Assembly: GCA_913056365.1 (NCBI GenBank)
Contig: CAJXLT010000005.1
Location: 1 to 64,000 of the forward strand
Direction: 5' to 3'
DNA from: an uncultured Paenibacillaceae bacterium
Lineage (GTDB): Bacteria > Bacillota > Bacilli > Paenibacillales > K13
Length of the DNA: 64,000 nt
Below the pieces are notes generated by a model, which saw nothing but the letters and a program-made list of their open reading frames with translations, ran no database searches and had not been told where the DNA came from. Numbering within the stretch: position 1 is the stretch's first letter; the number at the start of each line of letters is the position of its first letter. Both the position numbers and the translations under genes were made by a program. This document shows, one piece after another, positions 6,326 to 30,153 of this stretch.

Positions 6326-6398
6326 TTTTGTATCACCCAATCTTAGTGATAATCTTGGTCAATCGACCGATGAAATGTCACGGTCATCCCCAGATTTA

Positions 6399-7403
6399 TT
6401 ATTTTAACTTATAATAGTCTACATACCAGTCTGCGAATCGCTGTAAGCCTTCACTAATACTCGTTTTCGGACTGAAACCCGTAACTTCCTCCAATCGTTC
6501 TGTTGAGGCGTAGGTAGCTGGTACATCGCCAGGTTTCATGGGTTCATATTGTTTTTGAAAAACAACGGTCTTGCCCATCGCTCTACTGAACGAAAGTTCT
6601 AATGCTTCGATGAAGTCCATCAATTTAACAGGCGTATTGTTCCCTATATTATACACCTTGTGAAATGGCTCTTCGCTCGAAGAATGTTCCATTAACTTAA
6701 CGATCCCTGAAATAATATCATCAATATAAGTAAAATCTCGGTATAAGTCATTCTCAAAGTCACCATTATTAAAGATCCGAATGGCTTTTCCTTCAAAATG
6801 TTGCTGAGCAAAAGAGAAATAAGCCATATCTGGCCTCCCCCATGGGCCATATACGGTAAAGAATCGAAGTCCAGAAGCCGGAATTTGATATAGGTGACTG
6901 TATGAATGAGCCATTAACTCATTTGATTTCTTCGTAGCTGCATATAGGGATACCGGATGATCTACATGATCACTTTCTTCGAATGGTACTTTCTTATTCG
7001 CACCGTATACCGAACTGGATGAAGCATAGATCAAATGTATTACAGGATACCGTCTACAAGCTTCGAGAATATGAAAAGTGCCAACGAGATTACTTTGAAT
7101 ATATGCATCAGGATTCTCGATCGAATACCTCACACCAGCTTGAGCGGCTAGATGAACTACGTATTGAGGACTGTGCAATTGAAACAAGGACATCAATACA
7201 TCTTTATTCGCTAGATCAGTCTCCGTAAAATGAAATTTATCATACATGTCAAGTTGTGATAGCCGATCTTTCTTCAGTTGTACTTCGTAGTAATCGTTTA
7301 GATTATCTAATCCGATAACCTGATAACCATGTTCAAGTAAACTACGGGATAAATGAAAGCCTATAAATCCCGCTGCTCCTGTAACCAAACATACCTTCAT
7401 CAT
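6399..7403 (-). CDS. UDP-glucuronate 4-epimerase-like NAD-dependent epimerase
   Basis: An extended short-chain dehydrogenase/reductase of 334 residues. It shows the NAD motif TGAAGFIG (8-15), the catalytic Ser at about 129 in YASSSSVYG, and the YxxxK pair at about 154/158. The LDNLNDYYE segment and FTVYGPWGRPDMA are typical of the CapI/LpsL-type enzymes that interconvert UDP-glucuronate and UDP-galacturonate. Adjacent ugd supplies the substrate. Two ATGs in tandem follow a GGGGGA ribosome binding site; the first is taken as the start. A related UDP-glucose or dTDP-sugar specificity cannot be excluded by sequence reading alone, but the ugd pairing supports the uronate reaction. Confidence 0.92.
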   Translation of the reverse strand: MMKVCLVTGAAGFIGFHLSRSLLEHGYQVIGLDNLNDYYEVQLKKDRLSQLDMYDKFHFTETDLANKDVLMSLFQLHSPQYVVHLAAQAGVRYSIENPDAYIQSNLVGTFHILEACRRYPVIHLIYASSSSVYGANKKVPFEESDHVDHPVSLYAATKKSNELMAHSYSHLYQIPASGLRFFTVYGPWGRPDMAYFSFAQQHFEGKAIRIFNNGDFENDLYRDFTYIDDIISGIVKLMEHSSSEEPFHKVYNIGNNTPVKLMDFIEALELSFSRAMGKTVVFQKQYEPMKPGDVPATYASTERLEEVTGFSPKTSISEGLQRFADWYVDYYKLK

Positions 7404-8611: not shown

Positions 8612-9247
8612 CTATTTTATACACTTTGCCGGAACACCCGCCACAGTTTTTGAAGCTGCCACGTCATCAAGGACCACACTGCCTGCTCCAACTATAGAAT
8701 ATCTTCCAGCATATAACCGGGGTAATATTCTTGCCCCACTTCCCAAGAAAACCCCTTCAGATAGATGGACTCCCCCTGTTATATCGCAATGATTACTTAC
8801 TGTCACTCCATCTTCTAAAATAGCGTCATGAGCTACTGTAGAGTGTAAATTAACAATCACATGATTTCCAATTATCGTATTAGTAGAAACTATGGAGTAT
8901 GGACTCATAATAATTCCTTGGCCAAGCTTGGAATCTGAACAAATAATACTAGTAGGATGGATAATATTAGTAAATTTAGCTCCGCGTTGAGCTAAACTTC
9001 TACATATTGTTAGTCTTATTTTAGGATTGGCAATCGCGCATACAAACAGATCATCTTGATCTGGAATATATTTGGTGATAGTTGAGATTACAGGTGTGTT
9101 TATCTTATATTTGTTAAGTGTGCTGATTTTATCATCAATAAAGCCTTTTATTCTCCAATTTCTTTCACTAATCGGAATATCATTAGCCCAATGAAGTAAC
9201 TCTCTCCCAAGATCCCCCGCACCTATAATAACAAGTCCCTTACACAA
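8612..9247 (-). CDS. epsM: NeuD/PglD-family sugar O- or N-acetyltransferase (EpsM-like)
   Basis: An N-terminal nucleotide-sugar-binding half (VIIGAGDLGREL near residues 6-17) is followed by a left-handed beta-helix of hexapeptide repeats with GNHVIVNLHSTVAHD and GSGARILP. This is the layout of PglD/NeuD acetyltransferases. Expected role is acetylation of the 4-amino sugar made by the neighbouring aminotransferase. The start is TTG at 9247 with GGGGGTGAT close upstream; no ATG is suitably placed. The 211-residue length is typical. The presumed catalytic His lies in the STVAHDAIL segment. It is tightly packed between epsL and epsN, with 22-bp spacers on both sides. Confidence 0.92.
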   Translation of the reverse strand: MCKGLVIIGAGDLGRELLHWANDIPISERNWRIKGFIDDKISTLNKYKINTPVISTITKYIPDQDDLFVCAIANPKIRLTICRSLAQRGAKFTNIIHPTSIICSDSKLGQGIIMSPYSIVSTNTIIGNHVIVNLHSTVAHDAILEDGVTVSNHCDITGGVHLSEGVFLGSGARILPRLYAGRYSIVGAGSVVLDDVAASKTVAGVPAKCIK

Positions 9248-9269: not shown

Positions 9270-9878
9270 TTATTCCATTTCTTTTTGGACATTACTTCCC
9301 TTGAATTCTTCCATTGTAACATGGTTTTCATGGCTAATATTTTCTGATCTAAGCACTTTAAGAACAGTGAACCACAAAATTTTCACATCTAACCAAAAAC
9401 TCCGATTATCTACATACCAAACATCTAATTCAAACTTTTTCTCCCATGAAATTGCATTACGTCCATTCACTTGCGCCCAGCCTGTTATTCCAGGCTTCAC
9501 TTCATGTCTTCTTGCCTGTTCTGGTGTATACCGGTTTAAATATTGCACTAGAAGCGCCCTCGGCCCAACAAGGCTCAAATCACCTTTCAATACATTTAGT
9601 AGTTGTGGCAATTCATCTAAACTATATTTTCTTAATAATACACCGATAATAGTCATTCTATCGATATCTGGCAATAACTCTCCATTTTGATCTCTTTCAT
9701 CAGTCATTGTTCGGAATTTATATATAGAGAATACTTTCCCTTTGTATCCAGGCCTCTCTTGTTTGAAAAATACTGGATTCCCTATTTTAATCAACACTAG
9801 AATATATATAACTATTAGTAACGGGCATAATAACAACAACAATATCCCTGAAACTATAACATCAAATAGTCGTTTCAA
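9270..9878 (-). CDS. epsL: Undecaprenyl-phosphate sugar phosphotransferase (EpsL/PglC-like)
   Basis: A monotopic phosphoglycosyl transferase that starts glycan assembly by moving sugar-1-phosphate onto undecaprenyl phosphate. One N-terminal membrane segment (about 10-30) is followed by FKQERPGYKGKVFSIYKFRTM, split here only for reading, and by DELPQLLNVLKGD, LVGPRAL and PGITGWAQVNGRN, the conserved catalytic blocks. Length (202 aa) marks the short PglC-type. The start codon is TTG at 9878, with AAGGTGAT very close upstream. A TATAAT box at 9909-9914 on the minus strand could give the epsL-M-N group its own start, though no -35 is evident. The 208-bp spacer to the flippase gene holds nothing else that I recognise. 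Confidence 0.95.
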   Translation of the reverse strand: MKRLFDVIVSGILLLLLCPLLIVIYILVLIKIGNPVFFKQERPGYKGKVFSIYKFRTMTDERDQNGELLPDIDRMTIIGVLLRKYSLDELPQLLNVLKGDLSLVGPRALLVQYLNRYTPEQARRHEVKPGITGWAQVNGRNAISWEKKFELDVWYVDNRSFWLDVKILWFTVLKVLRSENISHENHVTMEEFKGSNVQKEME

Positions 9879-10086: not shown

Positions 10087-11601
10087 TCAAAATTTCACTT
10101 TATTTGCAATTCCACTTTTTATTTTATAGATGATTAGTTTTATCTTCAACTTCTCTTCTCTTGAACATACAAGATAATATGTGCACGTCACAAAAACAGT
10201 TATAATTGTAAAGCTTATTATAGTAAACTGAAGGAGAAAATTTTGCATAATCATCTGGCTAAGTAAATACCCCAAACATGTTGCCAGCGAAAATGGAATA
10301 AACACTTTCACAAATGGAATACTATATGGATGTATCTTCAACTGATAGTACACTAGGATCAATCGAATGACATTCGAAATGAGTAATGAAACCGCTGTCG
10401 CAATTGCCGCCCCACTGATACCCATAATTGGGATTAACCACATGTTAAGTGCGATATTTATTATAATTGCACTTAAATTCGCATACAAGTTATATCTTGG
10501 GCGCCCTGTCATAGAATTTATAGTTCCAACAGGTCCTACTATTGAATTGAATACTTGACCGAGAGCAATGAGCACTAACGCTTGAGATCCCAAAATGTAC
10601 TCCTGACTAACTAACCCCATAATTTCTTCACTCAATACTAATAGGATACTAAATACTAAAAGGCTAAAGAGCATAACCCACTTCGTGCTCTGCTGGAAGA
10701 CAGTCTTTAATTCATCTACCTTTTTACTATGGTACAATTTTGTAGTGATAGCAGGGAAGATGGAATTCAAGGAAAGAAGTGCAAACATGGCAACATTCCC
10801 AAAAGTCATAGCTAGCTTGTATATTCCAACTTCAATGCTATTATGAAAGTATCCAATCATGTAAATATCAATATTATTAATTAATACAATCATTATTCCG
10901 TTAAATAATAGTGGAATGGAGTATATGAACAACCTCTTGCTTTCCTGATAATATCCACTATTCCATGTAAATCGCCAATGCACTCTGATAATTTGGTAAA
11001 ACAAATATAGAATTGTTAATATCAATCCTATATAATAAGCAGATACAAGAGTGAATATAGATTCTCCAATAACAATAAAAAGTAGAAGAAAAACAATAAA
11101 TTCAACAACATGCCTTACTACATTTGAGCTTATGACATATACCTTTATTTTTTTTAGTGCTCGAAAAATACCCAGCAAAACATTTGAGATATTAATGATA
11201 ATTATGGTTGGTAATAATATTACCATTAATAATTCATATTTATTGTCTAAAAGTATATATTCTGTGATTACATGAATATTTAAATATAACACAAATATTA
11301 TAAGCAGATTAATAATGAATACTAATGTGATGGCAAAGGAGATAATTGCATTCCTCTTTAGTTTTTCGGCCTTTGAATATTTCGGGATAAATGCTATAAC
11401 ACCAGTTGGTAGACCAAGATTGCCAATTACCAAAACAATGGCCAGAACACTAACAACAAAAGTAAATTCGCCAAATAATTCTGGTCCTAATATTCTTGCG
11501 AAAATAATACCATTTATCAAAACAAAAATTTTCCCAACAATATTGCCGATAAACGATATTAATGACTTGCTGCCAATTTCATTCATCATATTCACTTTCA
11601 T
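10087..11601 (-). CDS. wzx: Wzx-type polysaccharide flippase
   Basis: An integral membrane protein of 504 residues with about 12-14 predicted spans, of the MOP/oligosaccharidyl-lipid flippase superfamily. It would move the undecaprenyl-linked repeat unit across the membrane. The N-terminal SKSLISFIGNIVGKIF and ARILGPELFGEF segments are typical. Its ATG overlaps the stop of the upstream sulfotransferase gene by 4 bp (ATGA), so translation is coupled; AGGTGA abuts the ATG, and a second ATG pair five codons later is an alternative start. Base composition is markedly AT-rich compared with flanking genes, like the whole 10-17 kb segment. Confidence 0.93.
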   Translation of the reverse strand: MKVNMMNEIGSKSLISFIGNIVGKIFVLINGIIFARILGPELFGEFTFVVSVLAIVLVIGNLGLPTGVIAFIPKYSKAEKLKRNAIISFAITLVFIINLLIIFVLYLNIHVITEYILLDNKYELLMVILLPTIIIINISNVLLGIFRALKKIKVYVISSNVVRHVVEFIVFLLLFIVIGESIFTLVSAYYIGLILTILYLFYQIIRVHWRFTWNSGYYQESKRLFIYSIPLLFNGIMIVLINNIDIYMIGYFHNSIEVGIYKLAMTFGNVAMFALLSLNSIFPAITTKLYHSKKVDELKTVFQQSTKWVMLFSLLVFSILLVLSEEIMGLVSQEYILGSQALVLIALGQVFNSIVGPVGTINSMTGRPRYNLYANLSAIIINIALNMWLIPIMGISGAAIATAVSLLISNVIRLILVYYQLKIHPYSIPFVKVFIPFSLATCLGYLLSQMIMQNFLLQFTIISFTIITVFVTCTYYLVCSREEKLKIKLIIYKIKSGIANKVKF

Positions 11602-12452
11602 TCACCTGAGTAATAAATCGACAAATCTTTGTCTATAAGACTTTCCAGTGATTTCAGATCATTCTTATAATAGCTCTTCAGATACACACGAAAATCATTG
11701 TCAATAGGTTCTTTTTTCAATTCTTTCCTATTAAATATTCTATAATATTTGGATAAACTTCCTCTAAGAACAGGTGGGATGAACTTCTTGATCTTATCTT
11801 TGTGATTATAAAACAATTTGTTCATATTTTTATTCTTCGCCAAATAACCTTTGTTTGAATGCATCTTAGTTATAGGAATATGACTGATTCCTGCAAAGTC
11901 ACAAAATTCATCTACGATTCCTTGTTGATTATTAACAAATTCCTCAAACAAAATAATGAGAATGTTCTCCTTAGGAAATAACTCATACACTTTTTTCACT
12001 TGAGAATAATACTTGCCACGCTCAAAATAGCTATTTTCTCTATACTTCAAATCATTTAATTGCATTCTTTCCCTTTCTTTATAAAAACTTTCCTTAAAAG
12101 AAAGGTTGTCTCTACCTTTCAATAAGCTCATATAATAATGGGACTCAGCTCGTTTTATAGGATCTCTCAATAAAATTATAAGTTTAGTATTTTCAACAGG
12201 TAATGTCTTTGCAATCTTATCCATTGTATCTTTATAAAAAATATATGAAGGGGTAACATCAAATTTAATTCTGCTTTTACCATTAAACAGACTAAGATAC
12301 TCTTGAAGACTTGGTTCATTTGTATAATCAAAGTAATGCAATTCTTTATTCTTACCTATATCTAATGATTGATGCTTTGATAGCAAATCATATAATAAAG
12401 TAGTACCTGCTTTTTGAACTCCAATTCCTAAAATAAAATTATCATATTTCAT
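11598..12452 (-). CDS. PAPS-dependent sulfotransferase (first of two)
   Basis: A 284-residue sulfotransferase of the heparan-sulfate/nodulation type. The 5'-phosphosulfate loop GVQKAGTTLLYDLL spans residues 11-24 and the 3'-phosphate-binding LLRDPIKRAESHYY spans about 94-107, with Arg96 and Ser104 in the expected places. No signal peptide or membrane span is visible, so it should act in the cytosol on a nucleotide- or lipid-linked sugar. It overlaps both neighbours by 4 bp (ATGA junctions), which puts it firmly in the operon. PAPS synthesis and PAP removal genes (cysC, cysQ) lie downstream in the same locus. The acceptor sugar is unknown. Confidence 0.94.
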   Translation of the reverse strand: MKYDNFILGIGVQKAGTTLLYDLLSKHQSLDIGKNKELHYFDYTNEPSLQEYLSLFNGKSRIKFDVTPSYIFYKDTMDKIAKTLPVENTKLIILLRDPIKRAESHYYMSLLKGRDNLSFKESFYKERERMQLNDLKYRENSYFERGKYYSQVKKVYELFPKENILIILFEEFVNNQQGIVDEFCDFAGISHIPITKMHSNKGYLAKNKNMNKLFYNHKDKIKKFIPPVLRGSLSKYYRIFNRKELKKEPIDNDFRVYLKSYYKNDLKSLESLIDKDLSIYYSGE

Positions 12453-13402
12453 GAATTATTCACCTTCCGTTTCCTTCTGCTGTGTTTGAACCTGTCAATT
12501 CCTCTTAGAATAAACTCCTTTGCATAAATAGCAAGTTTTTGATTGAGGCTCAAATCCAAGCTAACATCTGGATACTTCAACTCATAGCCTAGATAAATCA
12601 AAAGATCATTAGTCATTTCTTCAAAAATTTGAATTTCACGCTCTGAAAGATCAGTTTCCCATAAATTAATTCTTGATTGACTAATTTCTTTCCCGACAAG
12701 CTGATGTTGCTTTTTTGTATACACCGGCACTTTAAACCCGCTTCCATCAAAATCCCTTTCATCATATTCAATTCCGATAAAACTACAAATTCTATGAAGT
12801 TCTTCATTAGGACGTAAAATGATATCTTCATATCTTGTTTGCATGAAACTTGAATTAGGCAAGAATTTTTCTAATGCCAAACCATACGCAATATGCTCCA
12901 TCCAGTACTTGGATGTAAACATTGTTGAATTGCCACCCCAAGATACTTTCTTTAGGGAATTAGCTATTGCTCTTCCATCCCTAACAATGTGTATAAACTT
13001 ACAGTTATCAAAATGATTGTATAGTGAGATCGCATTTTTAATATTTTCCGGTGTGTGATCGATCCAGTATCTATAGTTTTTGACTTCATTAGCTTTATTA
13101 TACTCATCCAATAAATATCGAATGATAGTTTGATGATTATATTGTGTGAGTTGAAGATTTTCATACAATTCGTCTCGGTTTACTGCAATATCCCAAATAT
13201 TAAATCTGAAATTCTTTTCGAGATAATTAATTATATTTATTAAATCTTCCTTATGTCTTATAGGAAAGCTGTTTATTAGTTTTTCCTTAAATTGAGACTC
13301 GGGTGTTACCAAAATTGAGTGATGTTTTCCTAACAAAGATGCAAGCATAGTTGTACCACTTCTTGGACAACCTCCGATAAAAACTGGCACCACTTTCCCC
13401 AT
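12449..13402 (-). CDS. PAPS-dependent sulfotransferase (second of two)
   Basis: A 317-residue sulfotransferase that is clearly different from its neighbour. It has CPRSGTTML near residues 12-20 as the 5'-phosphosulfate loop and IHIVRDGRAIANSLKK at about 137-152 as the 3'-phosphate site (Arg141, Ser149). The ATG at 13402 with GAGGTGG 5 nt upstream is preferred to a GTG three codons earlier. It ends in a basic tail. Overlap with the next gene is ATGA-type. Two distinct sulfotransferases suggest two acceptor positions in the repeat unit, which is inference. Some proteins in this broad family act on protein tyrosine, so a protein acceptor cannot be excluded. Confidence 0.89.
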   Translation of the reverse strand: MGKVVPVFIGGCPRSGTTMLASLLGKHHSILVTPESQFKEKLINSFPIRHKEDLINIINYLEKNFRFNIWDIAVNRDELYENLQLTQYNHQTIIRYLLDEYNKANEVKNYRYWIDHTPENIKNAISLYNHFDNCKFIHIVRDGRAIANSLKKVSWGGNSTMFTSKYWMEHIAYGLALEKFLPNSSFMQTRYEDIILRPNEELHRICSFIGIEYDERDFDGSGFKVPVYTKKQHQLVGKEISQSRINLWETDLSEREIQIFEEMTNDLLIYLGYELKYPDVSLDLSLNQKLAIYAKEFILRGIDRFKHSRRKRKVNNS

Positions 13403-13428
13403 ACATTCCACCTCACATTATAAAAACT

Positions 13429-14484
13429 TTATATCTTTAATTTCTCAATCAGTATATTGACTACTCTTTCTTCAGAGTATCTTTCTGATTCCACAAGACA
13501 ATTTTCGCTGTAAAATTCGATTAGTTCAGGATGATTTATTACGCTCTCCAGTTTCTCAATCATATCATGATAGTTCATCGCCTCAAAAATCTTACCATGG
13601 AAATTGTCTTTTATAATTTCTGAGTTATATTTCCAATCAGATGAAATTACCGGCAATCCCGCCGTCATTGCATCTAACAATACACCCGGGAACCCTTCTC
13701 CTTCATAAAATGTTGGAAATAGCAGTACATGATACTGTGACAACGTTATTAAAATATTGTCAGGATCTAGCTTACCTTTATATGAAACTGTCTTTGACAG
13801 ATTAACTAATCGGTAAAAACTTTCCGTATAGCTAGACCCAATAGGTCCATATATATCAAGGTGAAGCCCATAACCATGTTTATTATTTAGCTCTTCTATT
13901 GCCCGAATAGCATACTCCACACCCTTTTCTCTTATCACTCGTGAGTAAAACACAACTTTGTAAACTTTATTTGTTTTAACTACACCATATATCTTGTGTT
14001 TATAAATACGATAATTGGGAAATAAAATGACATTATCCAACGGAATCTCGTCCAATCTAGCTTTCAATGAATTAGTTTGAACATAAACCCTATCTGCTTT
14101 TTTGATATATTTTGAATACCTAGGGTTCTTACTCAAAAATTCATATAACCATCCACCTATTGCTACAAAATGGACCTTTTTGCTCAAAATAACCCCACAT
14201 ATATGCATTAGAAAACACATATACTTTATAGCACCTTGGGCCGGCATAAAAATTAGTATTTTTGATCGTAACACATGAAATATAGCTCGCACCAAACAAT
14301 TTAACCACTCAATACTTAAGCTGTTACGTTTCAATAATGAGGTATCCAAATAATCAATTGTATATTCATCCATATATTTTTCAACTGATTCTAATACAGT
14401 TCTTGTACGCATTGTCTGTCCGTTCAAATCATTCGACGCATAACCAAAATTCCCTATAATACAAACATTCCTCTTGCTACTCAT
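13429..14484 (-). CDS. Glycosyltransferase family 4-like
   Basis: A 351-residue GT-B fold glycosyltransferase. The C-terminal donor-binding domain shows VVFYSRVIREKGVEYAIRA near residue 190 and the EX7E-like block FPTFYEGEGFPGVLLDAM near residue 265, followed by AGLPVISSDW. It probably transfers one sugar in repeat-unit assembly at the inner membrane face. It starts inside the last 8 bases of the upstream polymerase gene, with GGAGATG before its ATG. Composition is AT-rich like its neighbours. Donor and acceptor cannot be read from the sequence. Confidence 0.92.
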   Translation of the reverse strand: MSSKRNVCIIGNFGYASNDLNGQTMRTRTVLESVEKYMDEYTIDYLDTSLLKRNSLSIEWLNCLVRAIFHVLRSKILIFMPAQGAIKYMCFLMHICGVILSKKVHFVAIGGWLYEFLSKNPRYSKYIKKADRVYVQTNSLKARLDEIPLDNVILFPNYRIYKHKIYGVVKTNKVYKVVFYSRVIREKGVEYAIRAIEELNNKHGYGLHLDIYGPIGSSYTESFYRLVNLSKTVSYKGKLDPDNILITLSQYHVLLFPTFYEGEGFPGVLLDAMTAGLPVISSDWKYNSEIIKDNFHGKIFEAMNYHDMIEKLESVINHPELIEFYSENCLVESERYSEERVVNILIEKLKI

Positions 14485-15811
14485 TCTCTTGCATCTCCAG
14501 TATTTTTTTAGTAAACACTATCCTTAAACATAAACTAGTAATAACAATTGTAAAAGTACAACTAATTATAAAGGGAGTAAAACCGTTCTTAAATAATGTA
14601 ATAAGATTTGAGAATATCACAAAAGAATATACATTTTGTAGATAATCATTGGAATAGTAATATTTTTTATAAAAAAATCCAACTATAGCACCAAATATCA
14701 AGCTTAATAGAATAGCTATACATCCAAAATTGACTATCATTTCGTTAACATAAAAAAAAGAAGGATTTCCTGGTAGATTCATCTTCGCTTCGATTAGCTC
14801 TGGAACCACCGAGGGTTTATCACTCATCATACTTCTTGGTATGGCACTGAAAATCAAAAATTTAACACTATATCCCCAAGGAATACTGAAGTTACTTAAA
14901 TAATCTTGTATTAATAACAATGTTTTGAATCCTGTAGCGGGGCTTGCAAAAATTAATTCCAGGAATCCTCTCAACTCCCAAGGTGCAGTTATCTCTGAAC
15001 CCCGTTGTATTTGCGTGAACAGAGACCTACCCCACCACATTATAGGAATCATGACTAAAGCAGTCACTCCAATAGAATATATTTTTTTTCTTTTTAGTCG
15101 ACTTTTTACATACCACGCCAAATTTTGTTTGATCTTTATGTGTGACATGAATATAAATAAAAATATTAAAAAATTAATAGTTTCTCTTCTTTGTCCTGTT
15201 GTGAAGTACGCTAAGAAACTCAACAGTATTAAAAATAGTGTAAACACACTTAATTTTCTTTTTGTAAATCTATCTTTCAGAACAAATAGAACCACTAACA
15301 AATTTGGTATCAAAGTATACAGCGATTCAATGTAAGCCGAGTCGAATATCCCCTCTTTCCTAGATGGTGAGAAGAACAATAGTATATTATTATAATTTTC
15401 TTTGAAATTCATAAATCCTATAAATAATGTTACTAACCAGACACCAATCAGAACACTGGTTAAAATTTTAAACTTACTCTTCAATATTGTGTATTCAAAG
15501 TAATTACTGTTTGTAAACCAATTCACTCTTACTAGATTATATCCGATCATAAAAACCAACATAATTAAAGTCGTCAAAAAAATAAGTTTCAAGCCATAAG
15601 TTGATGTTGGAATAGTTAAATTGTAATCAAGTAATTGTTTATTGAATAGCCCCCATTCCATGACAAAATCCCATGCTGGAAATGCATAAAATACAACATA
15701 GAGAAGGGACAGGATTGCACTAATATCGAATTGTTTCTTATAAAGTAATAGAATTGATGTAAGTGCCATTATTACGTGCAACAACATCAACATTCCCACG
15801 GCAAGGTACAT
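14477..15811 (-). CDS. wzy: Wzy-like oligosaccharide repeat-unit polymerase
   Basis: A 444-residue polytopic membrane protein with about 12 hydrophobic segments and a large polar loop around residues 260-345 (LFTQIQRGSEITAPWE, SMMSDKPSVVPELIE). The layout fits the O-antigen polymerase/oligosaccharide repeat unit polymerase families, whose sequences are otherwise poorly conserved. It would join repeat units on the outer face of the membrane under control of Wzz. AAGGGTGGACC precedes the ATG. It is flanked by glycosyltransferases in an AT-rich cassette. The function is inferred from topology and context; the locus also holds a ligase-family protein (17117-19465), and either could be the polymerase. 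Confidence 0.86.
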   Translation of the reverse strand: MYLAVGMLMLLHVIMALTSILLLYKKQFDISAILSLLYVVFYAFPAWDFVMEWGLFNKQLLDYNLTIPTSTYGLKLIFLTTLIMLVFMIGYNLVRVNWFTNSNYFEYTILKSKFKILTSVLIGVWLVTLFIGFMNFKENYNNILLFFSPSRKEGIFDSAYIESLYTLIPNLLVVLFVLKDRFTKRKLSVFTLFLILLSFLAYFTTGQRRETINFLIFLFIFMSHIKIKQNLAWYVKSRLKRKKIYSIGVTALVMIPIMWWGRSLFTQIQRGSEITAPWELRGFLELIFASPATGFKTLLLIQDYLSNFSIPWGYSVKFLIFSAIPRSMMSDKPSVVPELIEAKMNLPGNPSFFYVNEMIVNFGCIAILLSLIFGAIVGFFYKKYYYSNDYLQNVYSFVIFSNLITLFKNGFTPFIISCTFTIVITSLCLRIVFTKKILEMQENE

Positions 15812-15838: not shown

Positions 15839-17002
15839 CTATCTTGTACTCTCTGCTTTTTCCCAGTACGGCTTAGTCTTCCCAGTAATAATATTATAAA
15901 CACCAACCCATTGTGCAAGAATTGTCATACAATAGTAGTTGATTAATCGTAAATATCTATTGTCAGACTGCAACTTAAATTGTATGCCTCCAAGCAAAAA
16001 GAAAGTGATTTGGAAAAGAATGACAAATAAAAACATGTACCCGTATTGTAGAAGGGGGATATTTGAAATCAGTAAGGTTAAATGGGCTGCCCATAGCAAA
16101 TATCTACAAGTCCTATGCCCTATATAAAAAAATGTGTACCATCGATATTTAAAAACATTCAGAATTCGAATATCAGGCATAATGTCCATGAGTATTCCTC
16201 TATTCATTCGAACTTTTCTCTTAAATTCATCTTCTAATATCTCTCCTGCTTTTTCATAGGCAATTGCATCGGGATTATACAATGCTCTTTTATTTTTCAA
16301 AGCATAGAATCTAGGCATTTGACTATCATGACATTTTATAGGGTCAAAATCATGATATTCTGAGTTTCTACATGCGTATAATGCTCCATTACCGGCTGTT
16401 ATAGTTTGAATATCACTTTCTATATTTCTAAGTTTTGTGTCAGCATCCCAATAGGTACTTTCCATTTCTGAAACTCCAACATTTGCATTATGATACATCA
16501 GCCGACCACTTACATAGCTAATGTTTTCATCAGCAAATGCAGCAACCAGTTCCATAACCGAATTTTTATCTAACATTGAATTTGCGTCAGTCATAACTAA
16601 CATCTCTGAATTAACGATCTTCTGAGCTTCATTCTGCGCATTAGTTTTTCCTTTTCGTTCCTTTACTTCATACAAACATATATTAGTTTGAGAATGTGAT
16701 TTTATAAAGTTTTTTACAATTACATTTGTCTTATCTGTGCTATGATCTGATGCAACAATATAATTCAACTTCTCATTTGGATAATTAATTTCGAGCAGAT
16801 TTTTCAGCTTTTTCTCTATCACTTTTTCCTCATTATGCGCTACTACCATAACTGTGACTGTAGGTTGATAATTGTAATCCTTATTTAATTTTCTAGTGCT
16901 ATAAAAAATTCTCAACAACTTCATAAAAATAGGATATCCTACCATTGCCCAAAATATAACAAAACCACTTATAATATAAAAACTTAAAGCAATACTATGC
17001 AT
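15839..17002 (-). CDS. Glycosyltransferase family 2, membrane-anchored
   Basis: A 387-residue processive-type GT2 protein. An N-terminal membrane segment (about 5-27) leads into the GT-A domain with VMVVAHNEEKVIEKKL near residue 52, the DxD-like TDANS near 138 and a C-terminal QMPRF block. Two or three membrane spans follow (about 280-375). This architecture is shared with EpsO/hyaluronan-synthase-like transferases. GAGGTGAAAAA precedes the ATG. A strong hairpin (17051-17081) lies just upstream, between this gene and the ligase-like gene. Donor sugar is unknown. Confidence 0.93.
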   Translation of the reverse strand: MHSIALSFYIISGFVIFWAMVGYPIFMKLLRIFYSTRKLNKDYNYQPTVTVMVVAHNEEKVIEKKLKNLLEINYPNEKLNYIVASDHSTDKTNVIVKNFIKSHSQTNICLYEVKERKGKTNAQNEAQKIVNSEMLVMTDANSMLDKNSVMELVAAFADENISYVSGRLMYHNANVGVSEMESTYWDADTKLRNIESDIQTITAGNGALYACRNSEYHDFDPIKCHDSQMPRFYALKNKRALYNPDAIAYEKAGEILEDEFKRKVRMNRGILMDIMPDIRILNVFKYRWYTFFYIGHRTCRYLLWAAHLTLLISNIPLLQYGYMFLFVILFQITFFLLGGIQFKLQSDNRYLRLINYYCMTILAQWVGVYNIITGKTKPYWEKAESTR

Positions 17003-17116: not shown

Positions 17117-19465
17117 TCAATAAGTCAAAAGTTCTTGTATCTTACTTTCCTCGTAAGGATATTCGTTTATCAATGCTTCGAAATATCGTTTATTGTTTCT
17201 TCCTTGTTTCTTCAATGCTGCCAAATACCATCTAGCAATTTCTCGGTTTATCTGAGCATCAAAGTTCCATGACGTATTTTCTTGCAATGATTCGATTGAC
17301 AATTCATATTCGCCTAACATATAGTATATCCTCCCAATATCAAGCGAAATCTTTCTACTTACCTTGAGTTGTTTAGTTTCTTGTAATTTATTATTCCAAG
17401 CTTGAATTTGATCATAGTACCCTATGGCTTGATTCCAGAAACGATACATTTCCACCTTATTACCTTGTTCACTTGTTTGAGATCCAAGTTTATAGTAAAA
17501 ATTTATTGCTTTTTCATACAATAGCATGTCCAAAGGGGTTTTTTTCAAATTCTCGTCAATCCATTCGATCGCTCGAGTCTGCTTATCTTGGGCAATTAAG
17601 AATGAGTATTTTGGTTGAATCAATTGTTTATAATATGGATCCGACTTTATTAACTTACCAAAGACTACATCCGCTTCTTCTAAAAATCTTTCATCATGAG
17701 TCTGTGAATATAGCTGAAAAAGTAGACTGTACTTATATAGATTATACTCAGGATGATTAGCTTCAATTTCTAATGCTCTATTCAAAGGTCTAACGATTTC
17801 ATTATAGTTATTACTAGATTTAGCCACTTCTAACGCCTCCGAAAATAATACATTGGCGCGATATGACTGTAAAGAGTTAAAAATTAAGATCACAGCCAAA
17901 ATCATAATGAAAGAAGCATATAGTTTTCTAAAAACCTGCATTTTCTTCTTGCTCATATATACATATAGGTTTGAATTTTCATTTGAAATCATCATACCTA
18001 TACCCAGAAATACCAAGGCGGATAGATACACAAATGACATGTCGAAGTCTATTGCACTATGAACGATAATATTTAGTACGAGTACTGGAAACATCCACTT
18101 CAATTCATTCTCTTCTGAAAAGCTGGTTTGTTTTATTATTCGCAGATAAACGAACAAAATATATCCGATAAAAAAAACAAACAGAATAAACCCGGTAATA
18201 CCTGTTTCTATCAGTAGCTTCATATAGAATGTGTGTGTTTGAGTACTTGTGTATGGGTAACTTTGATATTGCTCATAAAGTCTAGACCACGCCCCACCCC
18301 CTGCACCCATTGCGGGATAGTCTCGAATCATATTTACTGCATCTTGGATATATATGAATCTATCATTAGTAAATAACGAATCTATCGAAATTCTCCTTTC
18401 TAGATTATCCGGTAATATATCTAATACAATGTTACTTGAAAGAAGAATAACACTTCCAATCACAGTAATTAAAATTAAAATAGCTGGCAGAATCCAGCTT
18501 TGCTTTTGCATTGTTCGTACTTGTGAATTATTATTCCACACACTAAATATGAACGTTTGACAAACATAAATCAATCCACACACTAATATTGAACCTAGAA
18601 TTAAAAATACCCAGCCCTTAAGGGATACTAATGAATCATATTGTCGCGATAATTGATCTTGGAGCTGCACCATTCGATTCGTTAAGTACAAGGACACTCC
18701 CAACGAAACTATGACATAGAATAGTACGAAAAATTGCTTGCGCCAATTTAAAAATACAAGAAATAGTATAAAAACAATAATAAAACTTACAAGCCCCCCC
18801 CTTGATAGTGTCAGAATAAATGAACAGGCAATTGGAAGTACCATCATTGCATGTGCTATCAACACATACCATTTTCTTGTGTTTAGTATAAAAAGCATGT
18901 TAATCATCAACATCGCAGCGACGTATGCAGCATAGGCATTGGGATATTGAAAGACACCTGCCATACGTCCATTCAAAACTGCATCTTGATAATTTGCATT
19001 TCCTAACCAATTCATCCAACCGTATATGATTACAATATACCCCGATATTAGAAATCCATACTGAATCACTGCAGTTCGTTTCTTATTATTGGCAGTATAA
19101 GCACCTATTAAGAAAAAAACCACACAGAATATTTGAATAAACAGTTCATTTGTAGCTAAATGAAGTGAAACCGAGTTCAACGTAGATAAGAAGTAACTTA
19201 AAGGAATCAGCCAGATCATGATGGATAACACATCTCGATGTGACCTCAACCTCCAATGCTTAAACAAATAGACCGCTAGTAGGAATAATGCAATTCCTCC
19301 CCATAGTAGCGCTGTATAGATCGGACGTTCGAAGGAGTAATTATTCCCGTTAAATAAACCTCTCTGAAATGGAGCAATAAACATAAAGGTCAGTACAAAA
19401 CTAATTACCAACCAATATAAAATCGATTGACGATCTTCGCTTTTTTGATTCTTTGTTTTGACCAT
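17117..19465 (-). CDS. O-antigen ligase-family membrane protein with C-terminal TPR region
   Basis: A 782-residue protein with roughly 12 membrane spans in its first 480 residues. A Wzy_C/O-antigen-ligase core includes a loop with DAVNMIRDYPAMGAGGGAW and the conserved TQTHTFYMKLLIETG (His-containing). A C-terminal soluble part of about 270 residues is rich in TPR-like helices (RPLNRALEIEANHPEYNLY). Gram-positive cells have no lipid A acceptor, so it may act as a polymerase, a wall ligase or an O-oligosaccharyl:protein transferase. Size and layout recall, from memory, WsfB of Paenibacillus alvei S-layer glycosylation. AAAGGAG lies 12 nt before the ATG. Family is firm; acceptor is open. Confidence 0.9.
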   Translation of the reverse strand: MVKTKNQKSEDRQSILYWLVISFVLTFMFIAPFQRGLFNGNNYSFERPIYTALLWGGIALFLLAVYLFKHWRLRSHRDVLSIMIWLIPLSYFLSTLNSVSLHLATNELFIQIFCVVFFLIGAYTANNKKRTAVIQYGFLISGYIVIIYGWMNWLGNANYQDAVLNGRMAGVFQYPNAYAAYVAAMLMINMLFILNTRKWYVLIAHAMMVLPIACSFILTLSRGGLVSFIIVFILFLVFLNWRKQFFVLFYVIVSLGVSLYLTNRMVQLQDQLSRQYDSLVSLKGWVFLILGSILVCGLIYVCQTFIFSVWNNNSQVRTMQKQSWILPAILILITVIGSVILLSSNIVLDILPDNLERRISIDSLFTNDRFIYIQDAVNMIRDYPAMGAGGGAWSRLYEQYQSYPYTSTQTHTFYMKLLIETGITGFILFVFFIGYILFVYLRIIKQTSFSEENELKWMFPVLVLNIIVHSAIDFDMSFVYLSALVFLGIGMMISNENSNLYVYMSKKKMQVFRKLYASFIMILAVILIFNSLQSYRANVLFSEALEVAKSSNNYNEIVRPLNRALEIEANHPEYNLYKYSLLFQLYSQTHDERFLEEADVVFGKLIKSDPYYKQLIQPKYSFLIAQDKQTRAIEWIDENLKKTPLDMLLYEKAINFYYKLGSQTSEQGNKVEMYRFWNQAIGYYDQIQAWNNKLQETKQLKVSRKISLDIGRIYYMLGEYELSIESLQENTSWNFDAQINREIARWYLAALKKQGRNNKRYFEALINEYPYEESKIQELLTY

Positions 19466-19599: not shown

Positions 19600-21531
19600 C
19601 TAGTTTAATTTCCGTTCTAGTGTAGCGACAACCTCCATTGACGCTTTGATTTTTTCCTGTATTTGAATATGATTCAATTTCGATTCACTGATACTGCTTT
19701 GATAAGATGGGATCATCTCTTGCAAAACTACTTTCATCTCAGATTGCTTTAGTTGATCACCGCTCTTAACACTTACTTCTATAGCATTGATATTCCTCTC
19801 AAACTTGCTTTGTATAATCTCTCCATGTTTCCCCACAAATATCCGATCATGCTTCGTAGCAATTGCCCCTTCTTCATTCGTCAATAGTTCTTCATACAAC
19901 TTCTCACCTGGACGCATACCCGTAAATTGCACCTCAATGTCTTTGCCTGGTTCTAATCCCGACAAGCGAATCAGATCATGAGCTAGATCGGCGATTTTGA
20001 CCGGCTTGCCCATATCCAGAATGAAGGTCTCTCCGCCCTCCGTATAGGCTCCTGCCTGTATAACGAGCTGTACTGCTTCCGGAATCGTCATGAAATAGCG
20101 AATCATCTCAGGATGCGTTACAGTTACGGGCCCGCCTTGAGCAATTTGCTTCTTGAATAACGGAATAACACTCCCTCTACTGCCCAGTACGTTGCCAAAT
20201 CGAACGGCTGCATATGATGTCTTGCTCTTAGCATTCATGTTCTGTATGACCATCTCTGCAACCCTTTTGGTTGCTCCCATCACGCTAGTCGGATTGACTG
20301 CTTTGTCAGTAGATATCAGGACAAACCTGTCAGTTCCGATTGCATCCGCACATTCTGCCACATGTTTCGTACCCAATATATTATTCTTGACTGCTTCTAC
20401 TGGATTCTGCTCCATCAGCGGCACGTGCTTATGTGCTGCAGCATGAAATACTACATCAGGCTTGTGCGTAGCGAAGATATCCTCCAGACGTGCTCTGTCT
20501 TGAACATCGGCAATCATTGGATATATAGATAATTGAGGAAAATCCCTCTTCAATTCCATCTCAATCTGATAGATACTGTTCTCTCCATGCCCTAACAGGA
20601 TTAACTTGTTAGGTTCCACATTCGCTACTTGTCGACAGATCTCCGAACCAATCGAACCTCCAGCGCCAGTTACAAGTACTGCCTTCTCTCTTAGATATCC
20701 TGTTATCCCATCCATGTCCACCTTAACAGGTTCTCTTCCAAGCAGATCTTCCACACTAACATCCCGAATCATGTTCACAGTGAATTTGCCATGAATGAGA
20801 TCATTCACTCTCGGTATGATTTTGATCTGAGCATTCGTTTCCTTACAGATATTAATAATTTCCGCAATATCCGTACGTGAAGACGAAGGAAGTGCAATGA
20901 TGATGTCTTGGATTTCATATTTCTTCACTATTTGAGGAATATGTTGTCTAGTTCCTACGATTGGAACACCCATTGCTTCGCTCTTCTGTTTCTGCAGGTC
21001 ATCATCTATGAAGGCTACCGGATAAAGATCCGCTTGGTTATGCTTAAGCTCCCTTACAACTAGTACCCCTGCTTCTCCCGCCCCAACAATTAATGCTCTG
21101 CGATGATGAGGCTGTATCTTCATGTAATTATCTCTGAATATTCTCCATAGAAAGCGGGAACCGCCAACTGACATGAAAACAAGAATCGTTGTTAGCAAAT
21201 ATATACTTCTCGGAACTACGATGTGTCCATAGAAGTATTGCACTATGAATTGATGAATCGTATAGAAGAATACAGATCCTAATAAGGCACCCTTCAAGAT
21301 CGAAATCAAGTCTCCAACACTTGCATACTGCCAGATACGCTTATAAATCTTGAAGGAATAGAAGCTGATTAGCATAAGTGCAATGTAGATTGTTATGACA
21401 TAAGGCAGCACCTGAAAGTATCTTTCGCTAATTTGAAAATCAAACCTTAACAAATACGCGACATATACTGAACCTGTAACTAGTATTGCATCAATAAACA
21501 TGAGTATTATCGTCTTACTTATCTTCGTCAT
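19600..21531 (-). CDS. epsC: UDP-GlcNAc 4,6-dehydratase, membrane-bound (EpsC/CapD/PglF-like)
   Basis: A 643-residue polysaccharide biosynthesis protein. Four N-terminal membrane spans (about 1-120) are followed by a CoA-binding-like Rossmann domain (about 135-260, IVGAGEAGVLVVREL) and a short-chain dehydrogenase domain starting VLVTGAGGSIGSEICR near 285. The catalytic segment STDKAVNPTSVMGATKR carries Met where most SDRs have Tyr, as is normal for this family. It should make UDP-4-keto-6-deoxy-GlcNAc, the first step toward bacillosamine-type sugars; epsN, epsM and epsL in the same locus supply the remaining steps. The gene follows wzz after a 69-bp spacer containing a terminator-like hairpin. 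Confidence 0.95.
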   Translation of the reverse strand: MTKISKTIILMFIDAILVTGSVYVAYLLRFDFQISERYFQVLPYVITIYIALMLISFYSFKIYKRIWQYASVGDLISILKGALLGSVFFYTIHQFIVQYFYGHIVVPRSIYLLTTILVFMSVGGSRFLWRIFRDNYMKIQPHHRRALIVGAGEAGVLVVRELKHNQADLYPVAFIDDDLQKQKSEAMGVPIVGTRQHIPQIVKKYEIQDIIIALPSSSRTDIAEIINICKETNAQIKIIPRVNDLIHGKFTVNMIRDVSVEDLLGREPVKVDMDGITGYLREKAVLVTGAGGSIGSEICRQVANVEPNKLILLGHGENSIYQIEMELKRDFPQLSIYPMIADVQDRARLEDIFATHKPDVVFHAAAHKHVPLMEQNPVEAVKNNILGTKHVAECADAIGTDRFVLISTDKAVNPTSVMGATKRVAEMVIQNMNAKSKTSYAAVRFGNVLGSRGSVIPLFKKQIAQGGPVTVTHPEMIRYFMTIPEAVQLVIQAGAYTEGGETFILDMGKPVKIADLAHDLIRLSGLEPGKDIEVQFTGMRPGEKLYEELLTNEEGAIATKHDRIFVGKHGEIIQSKFERNINAIEVSVKSGDQLKQSEMKVVLQEMIPSYQSSISESKLNHIQIQEKIKASMEVVATLERKLN

Positions 21532-21600: not shown

Positions 21601-22632
21601 TCAGTTCGTTTCTATCGTCTTCTGATTATTAACGGGCGCACTGCTGCTCATATAGTGTCTGAACAAGTTAGTGAACACCCCAATCATAGCACCAAGGACG
21701 AACGCTATTGCCAGGTTGAGAACATTGTTCGGCGCAATCGGATCATTCGGTTCCATCGCCGGTGCGATGAATACAGCATTGAAGCCACTAAGCATCCGTT
21801 CCGAGTTAATCATATTCAATTCATCCTTCAAGATTTGCTGTTCCAAATTCGCTATAATCTCGTTGTCTTCCATTATTTCTTGCTCATAGTTTAACTTATT
21901 CGATTCTTGTCTAGTTAGTTCCAGCGTGATCTCAGAAATCTTGGTCATGAGACTTGTATAGAGTGGATTAATTTCCTCACTCTCTAATTGTAACGCCCCT
22001 AACTCACGTTCGTTAGCTGCAGTTCCTTCACTTATGACTGCACTTAAGTATGCTTCATCTGATAGACTCTTCTTAGTCGTTAACTTCTCCGGTGTCTCTG
22101 CTAGTTGTTTCTTCGCTTCCTGTAATTCATTGTCATTCACTTTGATTGAATCTTCCAATGACTCGAGGGATTTACGCGCACTTACAATTCTCTTCGAGCG
22201 ATCGGATATTTCTATTCTGGCGCCGAGTTCGAAGGCCATGAGGTTCGATATATCTGTAATGACACCTGCTTCTTGGCCACTTACTCGAATGTTCATATTA
22301 TTCGTATTCTCTACAACTTCAACATTAATACTGTTACGAATTGAATTTATCGAATAATGATCACGTGACAGTCCTAGCTTATTAATAATGCGGTTCATGG
22401 TCACATCTGTCTTCAGTGATTCTGCGAATGAATTCAAATATTGCTCTTGGTCTACAGTTTCCATATCAGAAAGTTCAACACGAACTGTTGAAACTGCCTC
22501 ATAGGTCGGAGACACTATGAAGAAGCTGAATATCCCTGTAATAGCTACAGCTATCGCTGTAATCGTGGCAATAATCCATTTCCCATCCCAAATAACCTTA
22601 ATAATCTCCCTCAAACTAATCTCTTCTTGCAC
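21601..22632 (-). CDS. Wzz/YveK-type chain-length determinant
   Basis: A 343-residue polysaccharide co-polymerase. An N-terminal Wzz domain (ISLREIIKVIWDGKW) leads into a membrane span at about 18-40. An extracytoplasmic coiled-coil-rich region follows (about 150-290), then a second span near 303-325 with the usual ASPAMEPNDPIAPN-like stretch before it (here AMEPNDPIAPNNVLN). It should set glycan chain length together with Wzy. The start is GTG at 22632 with GAGGAGAGA upstream. It is the first gene after the operon promoter. No tyrosine kinase domain or separate CapB/EpsB-type kinase gene is present in the locus, which is unusual for Gram-positive Wzz proteins. Confidence 0.93.
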   Translation of the reverse strand: MQEEISLREIIKVIWDGKWIIATITAIAVAITGIFSFFIVSPTYEAVSTVRVELSDMETVDQEQYLNSFAESLKTDVTMNRIINKLGLSRDHYSINSIRNSINVEVVENTNNMNIRVSGQEAGVITDISNLMAFELGARIEISDRSKRIVSARKSLESLEDSIKVNDNELQEAKKQLAETPEKLTTKKSLSDEAYLSAVISEGTAANERELGALQLESEEINPLYTSLMTKISEITLELTRQESNKLNYEQEIMEDNEIIANLEQQILKDELNMINSERMLSGFNAVFIAPAMEPNDPIAPNNVLNLAIAFVLGAMIGVFTNLFRHYMSSSAPVNNQKTIETN

Positions 22633-27162: not shown

Positions 27163-30153
27163 TTAATCCAAAATTACTGTGCTAGCTACAACTTCACCTT
27201 GACGGTTAACTGCATTAATAACAAAGCTTGTTACATCAGCACCAATCACGAATTCGAAACCATTAGGAGTTTCATTCAGAGATACTTGATTAAGTGCGCC
27301 GTCATCAGTGATGTCAGAGATTGTGTAACGAAGACCCAACAGTTCATCATACTCATAGATCTCAGTGTTCTCATACTCAACACCATACTGATCTTTAACT
27401 TTCAGGTCAATGTGTGCGGAAACCTCTGCTCCGTTTGCACCAGTAAGTGGTGCTTCTTCCTCTGCTTCACCGCTCTCAAGCTGTACGAGATCAGCCTTGA
27501 CAGTTACCGGAGTAGTCAGGGACTTCGTAGTACCGTCAGCAGCATCAACAATAACAGTTACATTCGTTGTTCCTGCTTTGTTACCGAGAACAAACGCTTG
27601 TGAACCATTCACTTCTACTTGTGCAATTGTAGAAGCTCCAGAAGTTACAGATACAATGGAATTCGGATATGCAACTTCATCGCCGGAAGCATCCTTGACA
27701 ACGAGTTTCACTTCCTTATTCACTGCACTTCCAGCAACATCCCATACAGTACCAACTAGATCAACATCATCAATTAGCTCACTGTCGATTGCAGCGTACA
27801 TGTCACCAAGGGACTCAAGTGAATAGTACAGTCTAGCATCATTCTTGATTGCTTCAGTTTGTGCAGTTGTTTTGTCTACTTCTTTATAAGAACCGCCATC
27901 GGCTGGATCCCATTTATAAAGCGTAGCAGTGAGAATTGCTTCTCCTACATCACCGTTCACATTGTTGAATGTGAATCCTTCGTTAAATGCTGCAAAGTCA
28001 TAATCCGCAGCCGCGCCTCTACCATACACTACAGCATTGTTCTCATCATTGGCTGCACTGATAGTTGCATTAGCAGTACCATCTTGAGGTGTTACAGTAG
28101 TTCCCATAGTGTCACCATAAGTGGCAGCAGTAACAGACATAGTTACTTCTACTCTGTAATCACTTTGGTGAGAACTGATGTCATCTCCATACTGATCCTG
28201 CACTTCAATTTCAATGTCAGAATTGGAGTTAAGAACCATCTTCTCATGAGGATGATCCGTAATAACTACCGAATCAACATGGCGAGCATCATCGATCTTA
28301 AACTGTCTGTTGTCATGGCTGTTCGTATTAGGTGTAATAATCTGTGCTGTGACGAATGCATAGCTGTCAGCTGCACCAGTTACTTCTTCAACACGAACTT
28401 TACCTTTGTTAACACCATATTGAACAATTGAAGTGTCAACTGTTTTGCTGTCACCAACATCAACAGTGAAATCTGCAAGGGTCAGACCACCGGAAGCCGA
28501 TACGCGAATGCGCTCTACATTGTCCACAATCTCTTGTGGTGTAAGCTCTTCACCGTCTGGACCAGTAACATGCAAGGTAATATACTTTCTGTCAGTGTCG
28601 CCGGAAGCAAGAACACTGTCAACATCGCCTACACGCACATCCATAGCTACGTTACCAACACTTACAGCAACATCAGTGGATGCGGATGCAGAACCGGCAT
28701 AGATTGTCAGGCTCAATGTTTCATTCTTCTCAATCTTACCATTGTCATCAACTGAAACCTGAACAATATACTGATCTTCAGCTTCGTCAACCTTATCGTC
28801 CAGTTCAATTTCAGTGTTGTAAGGTGTGATGTAATGGCTAATGTTCACATTCAAGCCATCTTCATCAACCTGGTCAGGCGTTACAGGATTGCCATACTGA
28901 TCGAAGAGCGTCAACGCTACTTCTGCAGTATCTCCAGGAGCAGACAAGCTCTCTTGCTCTTCAGCATATTCTACATCGCCCAGCTCGAGACCGGATACGA
29001 ATGGCTCAGTTCCGATTGTGAACGTCTTCTGAGCAGTTACACGGTTGTCGTCAAAGTAAACATAGATTGGTACTACGCTTACATTAGTCAACAGATTAGG
29101 ATCAGAAGTATCCAAAGTCACAACAAGGTATCCCTCGTCGTCCTTGCGGAGACCATCGTTAAGATCCAATGCGTTAACTGTGAAGTAAGAAGCACTGAAG
29201 GAAGACAGTTCGCCGTATTGGTTCTCAGCTCTCAGTCTTACTTTCGCTTGCTTGGACTTCGCAATTGTGTCGCTGGATGTTACGAACTCAATGGATTCAA
29301 CTGTTTCATCTTCAGCTTCGAAGGATGCTTCAGCAGTGCCAACTTGGTCGTCTTCAAGACCGCCCAATGTTACTGTGTAGCTACCTTCTCTGATCTTGGA
29401 TTCCAGAGCGATTGTTGCTGTCTTGGAATCTTCTGACCAAGTTACATCACCAGTATCCACGCTAGCGGAATTGCGCTCAACTGTGAACTCGATATCAGCA
29501 GTTTCAACAGTCTTATCTAGCGTTACTGTAACTTCTTTCACGCCTGTAGGTTCAGCAGATACTACAGAAACCTGTTCAGGCTCAAGAACGCCAACTTTAG
29601 CAGCTACTTCATAAGAAACAGTTGCCAATTGTGCACGAATTGCGTTAGCAGTGAAGTCAGCGTCAGCTGCGATCAATCCAGCGTCTACTGCTGCTTCCAC
29701 ATACTTCTGTGCCCATTCAGATGCGCCTTCAACTTCTGCTTCTTCGTCTACTGCTAGACCAAGAGCGTCAACATACACGCGAGCCATCTGCTCGATTGTG
29801 ATGTTGTCCTTGTCGCCGAATACAGTCTCGCTGTAACCGCTCATAAGCTCAGCGTGATGTACAGCTTCAACTTCTTCGAACGCCCAATGTCCCGGTTGTA
29901 CATCGCTGAACGATGCAGTTGCCGGAGGGTTGTTCAGGTCAAGTTCCATCAATAGGGATACAACACGCGCGAATTGCGCACGAGTCATATCTTGGTCAAG
30001 AGCCTTGTCACCGTCAATGCCGGCGAAAATTCCCTTTGCTTCTAGTGCGTCATATTTCTGTTCAGCAGTCATTTCATCTGCGGCGGATGCAACGGATGCA
30101 AACATCGAGAACACCATTGCGATCGCGAGCAGTAGGGATAAACTTTTTTTCAT
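27163..30153 (-). CDS. S-layer protein with N-terminal SLH domains
   Basis: A 996-residue exported protein. The signal peptide MKKSLSLLLAIAM... ends near ASVASA (residue 24) and is followed by three SLH-type repeats in about the first 190 residues (TRAQFARVVSLLMEL, FSDVQPGHWAFEEV, MARVYVDALGLA). The rest is a long acidic, Thr/Val-rich body of bacterial Ig-like modules. SLH repeats bind pyruvylated secondary cell wall polymer; csaB at 41.5 kb supplies that modification. The ATG at 30153 has AAGGAGG 13 nt upstream; a second in-frame ATG with a better placed site is at 30231. A promoter, long leader and strong terminator suggest high, independent expression. Confidence 0.95.
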   Translation of the reverse strand: MKKSLSLLLAIAMVFSMFASVASAADEMTAEQKYDALEAKGIFAGIDGDKALDQDMTRAQFARVVSLLMELDLNNPPATASFSDVQPGHWAFEEVEAVHHAELMSGYSETVFGDKDNITIEQMARVYVDALGLAVDEEAEVEGASEWAQKYVEAAVDAGLIAADADFTANAIRAQLATVSYEVAAKVGVLEPEQVSVVSAEPTGVKEVTVTLDKTVETADIEFTVERNSASVDTGDVTWSEDSKTATIALESKIREGSYTVTLGGLEDDQVGTAEASFEAEDETVESIEFVTSSDTIAKSKQAKVRLRAENQYGELSSFSASYFTVNALDLNDGLRKDDEGYLVVTLDTSDPNLLTNVSVVPIYVYFDDNRVTAQKTFTIGTEPFVSGLELGDVEYAEEQESLSAPGDTAEVALTLFDQYGNPVTPDQVDEDGLNVNISHYITPYNTEIELDDKVDEAEDQYIVQVSVDDNGKIEKNETLSLTIYAGSASASTDVAVSVGNVAMDVRVGDVDSVLASGDTDRKYITLHVTGPDGEELTPQEIVDNVERIRVSASGGLTLADFTVDVGDSKTVDTSIVQYGVNKGKVRVEEVTGAADSYAFVTAQIITPNTNSHDNRQFKIDDARHVDSVVITDHPHEKMVLNSNSDIEIEVQDQYGDDISSHQSDYRVEVTMSVTAATYGDTMGTTVTPQDGTANATISAANDENNAVVYGRGAAADYDFAAFNEGFTFNNVNGDVGEAILTATLYKWDPADGGSYKEVDKTTAQTEAIKNDARLYYSLESLGDMYAAIDSELIDDVDLVGTVWDVAGSAVNKEVKLVVKDASGDEVAYPNSIVSVTSGASTIAQVEVNGSQAFVLGNKAGTTNVTVIVDAADGTTKSLTTPVTVKADLVQLESGEAEEEAPLTGANGAEVSAHIDLKVKDQYGVEYENTEIYEYDELLGLRYTISDITDDGALNQVSLNETPNGFEFVIGADVTSFVINAVNRQGEVVASTVILD

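Follow-up and report, generated by a model that had tools for sequence, protein, structure and literature searches.

A predicted WsfB-type ligase in a Paenibacillaceae glycan cluster

The gene at 17117-19465 of the window, by which we mean the whole stretch of 64,000 nucleotides analysed here, is best explained as encoding a WsfB-family ligase that transfers a Wzx/Wzy-built, probably sulfated glycan to a secreted protein anchored through SLH domains. Taking the evidence as a whole, we give this reading a probability of about 0.72. The open reading frame lies on the minus strand, the plus-strand translation of the same region being full of stops, and it begins with an ATG preceded by a Shine-Dalgarno-like AAAGGAGC. 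Homologues are widespread in the order, 52 of 61 genomes giving a match, and because they are so common the frame is not a product of chance. No relative of the protein was found in a scan of viral contigs.

The protein scored well above the curated cut-off for Pfam Wzy_C (7e-13, 49 bits; cut-off 31.7). Residues 13-499 of a predicted model with a mean pLDDT of 80 superposed on the O-antigen ligase WaaL (7tpg) with a Z score of 17.2 and an rmsd of 4.5 over 365 residues, the top match and ranked above the TPR structures, while residues ~506-781 matched TPR proteins and residues 529-781 TPR solenoids. Helical-repeat Z scores near 12 are indecisive by themselves and a TPR call needs the family profile alongside; Pfam TPR was sub-threshold in the single sequence (E 0.099), and the family profile matched TPR structures with E values of 0.0017-0.03. 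Profile and predicted model together support a C-terminal TPR domain. Three residues, R222, R369 and H411, are invariant in all 29 aligned family members and share motifs with R215, R288 and H338 of E. coli WaaL, although the profile alignment behind this correspondence is weak (15% probability, with a single WaaL sequence). We take the three WaaL residues to be catalytic. With its WaaL fold and its Arg, Arg and His, the protein belongs to the Wzy_C/WaaL-fold superfamily, and the sequence-only reading, which had described a ligase-family protein of 782 residues with C-terminal TPR helices, was borne out.

Genes running from 22632 down to 2947 are all co-directional, with overlaps or gaps of at most 150 bp and one exception of 208 bp. 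Their predicted products, in the order of the run, are as follows.

21601-22632, minus strand: Wzz-type chain-length/co-polymerase protein (Wzz 1.4e-12)
19600-21531, minus strand: PglF/EpsC-type UDP-GlcNAc 4,6-dehydratase (Polysacc_synt_2 3.9e-126)
17117-19465, minus strand: predicted WsfB-family glycan-to-protein ligase (O-oligosaccharyltransferase), 782 aa, with a WaaL-fold membrane domain at ~13-499 and a TPR-like solenoid at ~529-781
15839-17002, minus strand: GT2 glycosyltransferase (Glycos_transf_2 1.9e-17)
14477-15811, minus strand: Wzy-like polymerase candidate, separate from the ligase (O-ag_pol_Wzy 2.5e-5 and TIGR04370 1.6e-5, both below curated cut-offs)
13429-14484, minus strand: GT4 glycosyltransferase (Glycos_transf_1 5.7e-24)
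12449-13411, minus strand: sulfotransferase whose nearest solved relatives are protein-tyrosine sulfotransferases (Sulfotransfer_3 5.1e-29; TPST2 5e-10)
11598-12452, minus strand: sulfotransferase whose solved relatives include heparan sulfate 3-O-sulfotransferases (Sulfotransfer_1 2.5e-15; 3rnl 6e-29; heparan sulfate 3-OST 3A1 1.6e-13)
10087-11601, minus strand: Wzx-type flippase (Polysacc_synt 2.6e-25)
9270-9878, minus strand: PglC/EpsL-like phosphoglycosyl transferase, the putative initiating enzyme, assigned from reading the sequence
8612-9247, minus strand: PglD/EpsM-like sugar acetyltransferase (PglD_N 2.9e-9, hexapeptide repeats)
7429-8589, minus strand: DegT aminotransferase, PglE/EpsN-like (DegT_DnrJ_EryC1 7.6e-93)
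6399-7403, minus strand: UDP-sugar epimerase, for a uronic acid donor with UDP-glucose dehydrogenase
5003-6340, minus strand: UDP-glucose dehydrogenase, for the uronic acid donor
3748-4374, minus strand: APS kinase, for PAPS supply (APS_kinase 1.5e-67)
2947-3738, minus strand: CysQ-like PAP phosphatase candidate (Inositol_P 2.3e-57; function by context)

A gene for a VanZ-like protein also lies in the cluster, between those for UDP-glucose dehydrogenase and APS kinase. The eps cluster of Bacillus subtilis carries the same first-sugar gene set (EpsC/L/M/N), but it is not known to have a WsfB-type ligase or sulfotransferases. The separate Wzy-like polymerase that had been proposed to share an operon with the ligase is present as the gene at 14477-15811, recognised by a weak match and situated inside this operon-like run; promoter and terminator scans gave results near shuffle level. 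The GC content of the cluster core is 28-35%, whereas most genes on the far side of the S-layer region have 53-57%, and such a low-GC pattern has been described for S-layer glycan clusters (PMC2943079).

ATP sulfurylase is encoded elsewhere in the window genome and, with the APS kinase, should allow PAPS to be made. Together with the two sulfotransferases, this supply supports the sulfated product that the sequence-only reading had anticipated, and the glycan made by the cluster is likely to carry sulfate. Since the product of 12449-13411 is, among solved structures, nearest to protein-tyrosine sulfotransferases, it may sulfate tyrosine rather than sugar. In another genome (G017, L053:5706-7530), a gene whose 608-aa product matches APS kinase lies ~1.2 kb from the WsfB-type gene, and sulfation may therefore recur with this kind of ligase.

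The window ligase is a full-length homologue of WsfB

WsfB of Paenibacillus alvei combines Wzy_C with a C-terminal TPR region and is described as a predicted or putative S-layer O-oligosaccharyltransferase, which weakens it as a reference, and the S-layer protein SpaA of the same organism is glycosylated on at least two tyrosines (2010 review, PMC2943079). A P. alvei genome was recognised by a 100% match over 161 residues to the solved SLH domains of SpaA (6cwc). The genome with this match holds the published wsf set, namely rml genes, tagD, asparagine synthase (WsfA), Wzt, Wzm, galU and galE, and its wsf locus contains a gene for an 826-aa ligase on the opposite strand. On these grounds of sequence we infer that the genome is that of P. 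alvei and the 826-aa ligase WsfB. P. alvei was not among the 80 named loci listed by a scan of genome contigs.

The window ligase aligned with this presumed WsfB over its full length (29% identity over 821 aa, E 1e-108), and the ligase family profile covered 8-821 of 824. In a tree of 59 sequences WsfB nested inside the family of the window ligase, with WaaL, other Wzy_C/Wzy proteins and the window's own Wzy on outlying branches measuring 3 to 8 changes per column. The outgroup branches are long, and the tree separates the family from WaaL and Wzy and does not fix the place of the window protein within it. A grouping with Wzy polymerases, which was to have counted against a ligase, did not appear. 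From the full-length homology, the grouping and the C-terminal TPR region, we assign the window ligase to the WsfB-type family, and the parallel with WsfB that had earlier been drawn is correct.

The two proteins share the Wzy_C and TPR architecture over their full length, the same conserved motifs and a syntenic S-layer locus. They differ in that WsfB works with the ABC exporter Wzm/Wzt, whereas the window ligase is found with Wzx, Wzy, Wzz and sulfotransferases, and no rml genes were seen in the window cluster. The window ligase resembles WaaL in membrane fold and in its Arg, Arg and His motifs, but WaaL lacks a TPR domain, acts on lipid A core and is only weakly matched to it by sequence profile. 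The protein O-oligosaccharyltransferases PglL and PilO, which we compare by description, are likewise Wzy_C ligases acting on protein, with a TPR motif in PglL (PMC2943079); unlike the window ligase they are Gram-negative.

These comparisons lead us to the following scheme, in which we infer the enzymatic activity, the tyrosine acceptor residue, the identity of the acceptor and the sulfate on the glycan. The cluster would build a lipid-linked repeat unit with a di-N-acetylbacillosamine-type or related first sugar, a uronic acid and probably sulfate. Wzx would flip this unit, and the separate Wzy, together with Wzz, would polymerise it. Outside the membrane, the ligase would take the finished chain from undecaprenyl pyrophosphate and transfer it to a hydroxyl, most likely that of tyrosine, on a secreted SLH-anchored protein, which the extracytoplasmic TPR-like domain may engage. 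Candidate acceptors are a SpaA-like S-layer protein encoded in the window (27163-30153) and a tyrosine-rich SLH protein encoded on another contig (C1).

A SpaA-type S-layer protein is encoded nearby

27163-30153, minus strand: gene for an S-layer protein corresponding to SpaA of P. alvei, a candidate acceptor (SLH region versus 6cwc SpaA 5e-22; 38.7% over 238 aa to SpaA)
30705-34883, minus strand: SlhA-like protein with C-terminal SLH domain(s) (SLH 8e-17; 41% over 1224 aa to the protein encoded upstream of spaA)

SpaA (6cwc) was the best PDB match of the SLH region of the 27163-30153 product, and the TagO, SlhA-like, S-layer and following genes of the window match the neighbourhood of spaA in synteny. 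By its N-terminal SLH trimer and its syntenic locus, we identify this product as a SpaA-type S-layer protein. The product of 30705-34883 is probably SlhA, a protein that P. alvei needs in order to swarm and to form biofilm (PMC3776848). The S-layer gene had been placed a few kilobases from the ligase and is in fact 7.7 kb from its start, with five genes between them: those for the PglF-like protein and Wzz, and three for secreted proteins, one of which is on the plus strand. Because of these intervening genes, one of them on the other strand, we rejected inclusion of the S-layer gene in the ligase operon. Codon bias did not clearly set the S-layer gene apart (Nc 46.5).

No tyrosine-rich segment occurs in the S-layer protein of the window (36 Tyr, of which 4 are preceded by V or T), nor in SpaA. 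By our own estimate, the likelihood that this S-layer protein serves as the main acceptor of the window ligase is roughly one in three; a sulfated S-layer glycoprotein is a reasonable prediction. Elsewhere in the window, 35066-37772 encodes an MBOAT acyltransferase and, after it, a GDSL-like protein, which may serve the O-acetylation of a surface polymer, and 57404-60217 encodes a cell-wall-anchored protease, a subtilase that carries three SLH domains at its C-terminus.

Ligase genes often adjoin genes for tyrosine-rich SLH proteins

Among relatives, the ligase gene often adjoins a gene for a secreted protein of about 550 aa. This protein starts with a segment rich in tyrosine, continues through a glycine-rich linker and a middle domain, and ends in three SLH domains. 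In 29 non-redundant members, tyrosine makes up 11.0% of the N-terminal segment versus 2.5% of the rest of the protein. The dipeptide VY occurs 151 times in these segments, versus 44 in shuffles (maximum 59 in 500 shuffles), and a Tyr-Tyr spacing of 4 is also enriched in the 29 members (57 versus 36, a level reached in 0 of 500 shuffles). Two of the VY tyrosines are nearly invariant across the tyrosine-rich SLH proteins.

For the first 60 relatives, a tyrosine-rich SLH gene lay at most 2 kb from the ligase in 16 genomes. As the profile for these proteins had been built from ligase neighbours, we tested the association on previously unsampled genomes, and found the ligase at most 3 kb from such a gene in 33 of the 51 new genomes with a full-length member, genomes that are related to each other and do not represent 33 independent events. 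At one locus (L049:7711-8436) the ligase adjoins a gene for a 241-aa secreted protein with little beyond a GSVYSDVYTGVY stretch and SLH domains, a possible minimal acceptor. A search of the window genome for the VY pattern in DNA gave a result below its control.

The natural acceptor of the window ligase may be a member of this family, the 643-aa protein on contig C1, rather than the S-layer protein, with the glycan anchored in the manner of a capsule through SLH domains to a wall polymer. This possibility, which we hold only tentatively, is a version of the preferred reading, and the two confidences overlap. It is favoured by the conserved adjacency to WsfB-type genes, by the conservation of the VY positions and by the fact that the window genome has the module just once. 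The sister genome (G001), moreover, has the tyrosine-rich SLH gene inside the ligase cluster, between Wzz and a CuAO-domain gene; at this place the window shows nothing but a gap of 300 bp. Against it, the gene in the window genome (about 197130-199060 of contig C1; L072:7130-9061) is not linked to the ligase; it adjoins another glycan cluster, which encodes a UbiA-family enzyme, a flippase and glycosyltransferases. Most Paenibacillus ligase loci have no such protein nearby, our search of the P. alvei genome found none, and the tyrosine-rich segment could serve otherwise, for example in adhesion. For the ligase family as a whole, tyrosine is plausible as the residue that accepts the glycan.

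More broadly, WsfB-type ligases and tyrosine-rich SLH proteins might be dedicated partners in much of Paenibacillales, a proposal that we rate a little short of even odds. The ligase would load an entire polysaccharide, whether assembled by the ABC or by the Wzy route, on the tyrosines of the VY repeats of a small SLH protein, and the SLH protein would tether it non-covalently to pyruvylated wall polymer. If so, the product would be a capsule anchored through a protein, and the S-layer protein would be a special case among the acceptors. We regard the association of the ligase with the tyrosine-rich SLH protein, which is new, as a more valuable result than the sulfated S-layer step. Literature searches for tyrosine glycosylation of SLH proteins, and for bacterial S-layer glycans that depend on Wzy or carry sulfate, returned nothing matching, which is weak evidence of novelty in each case. 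Tyrosine O-glycosylation of surface proteins is known in a few bacteria, and in the literature surveyed the ligase is only predicted and the acceptor signal not given. With the family in most sampled Paenibacillales genomes and an acceptor candidate linked to it by gene position, there is a direct route to testing enzyme, acceptor and site. A Wzy-built, sulfated version, if true, would mean that the ligase is independent of the chain-assembly route, which would be useful for glycoengineering.

Returning to the preferred reading, in which the acceptor is a protein, the ligase could instead act on peptidoglycan, a secondary wall polymer or a glycolipid, and the wall polymer genes TagO, TagA and CsaB do lie within the window. 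We consider this unlikely, since WsfB is assigned, by prediction, to the S-layer protein (PMC2943079), the conserved gene neighbour of the family encodes a secreted SLH protein, and no gene for a lipid or wall acceptor travels with the ligase in the loci examined.

Family context favours attachment over polymerisation

Chains exported by ABC transporters are complete, that is polymerised, before export, and a polymerase would be idle at loci with Wzm and Wzt. Wzm and Wzt both lie within about 10 kb at 95 of the 128 loci of the ligase family, some of which are present twice, and the window cluster is of a minority type (Wzz/PglF-type). As most members adjoin Wzm/Wzt exporters, attachment should be what the family does in common, and WsfB-type proteins are best read as ligases. 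Nor is the window protein the sole polymerase candidate of its Wzx/Wzy cluster, as a Wzy O-antigen polymerase would be: the cluster has a Wzy-like gene besides, and the clusters that relatives serve use ABC export. The sister genome shows the pattern again, its ligase being accompanied by a flippase and a separate 406-aa Wzy_C protein.

That the protein is a second polymerase or a chain-joining enzyme of Wzy type, linking repeat units or blocks, is thus improbable: Wzy_C proteins do include polymerases and the Wzy assignment of 14477-15811 is weak, but the protein groups with WsfB and away from polymerases, its relatives accompany ABC exporters at most loci, and both this genome and its sister have a separate polymerase candidate.

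The window genome has a second WsfB-type ligase, on contig C6 at 139839-142085 (L037:8822-11128; also L239), adjoining a glycan cluster with an ABC-2 permease, an ABC ATPase and a Sulfotransfer_2 protein. Judged by gene content, one genome runs both the Wzy and the ABC route, each with its own WsfB-type ligase, and the pairing of ligase with acceptor is ambiguous because there are two such ligases. Across genomes, WsfB-type genes are often near groEL (L043, L051 and L059), and in Paenibacillus they are found near a U32-peptidase-like gene (L055 and L056); these neighbourhoods are conserved locations for variable glycan clusters.
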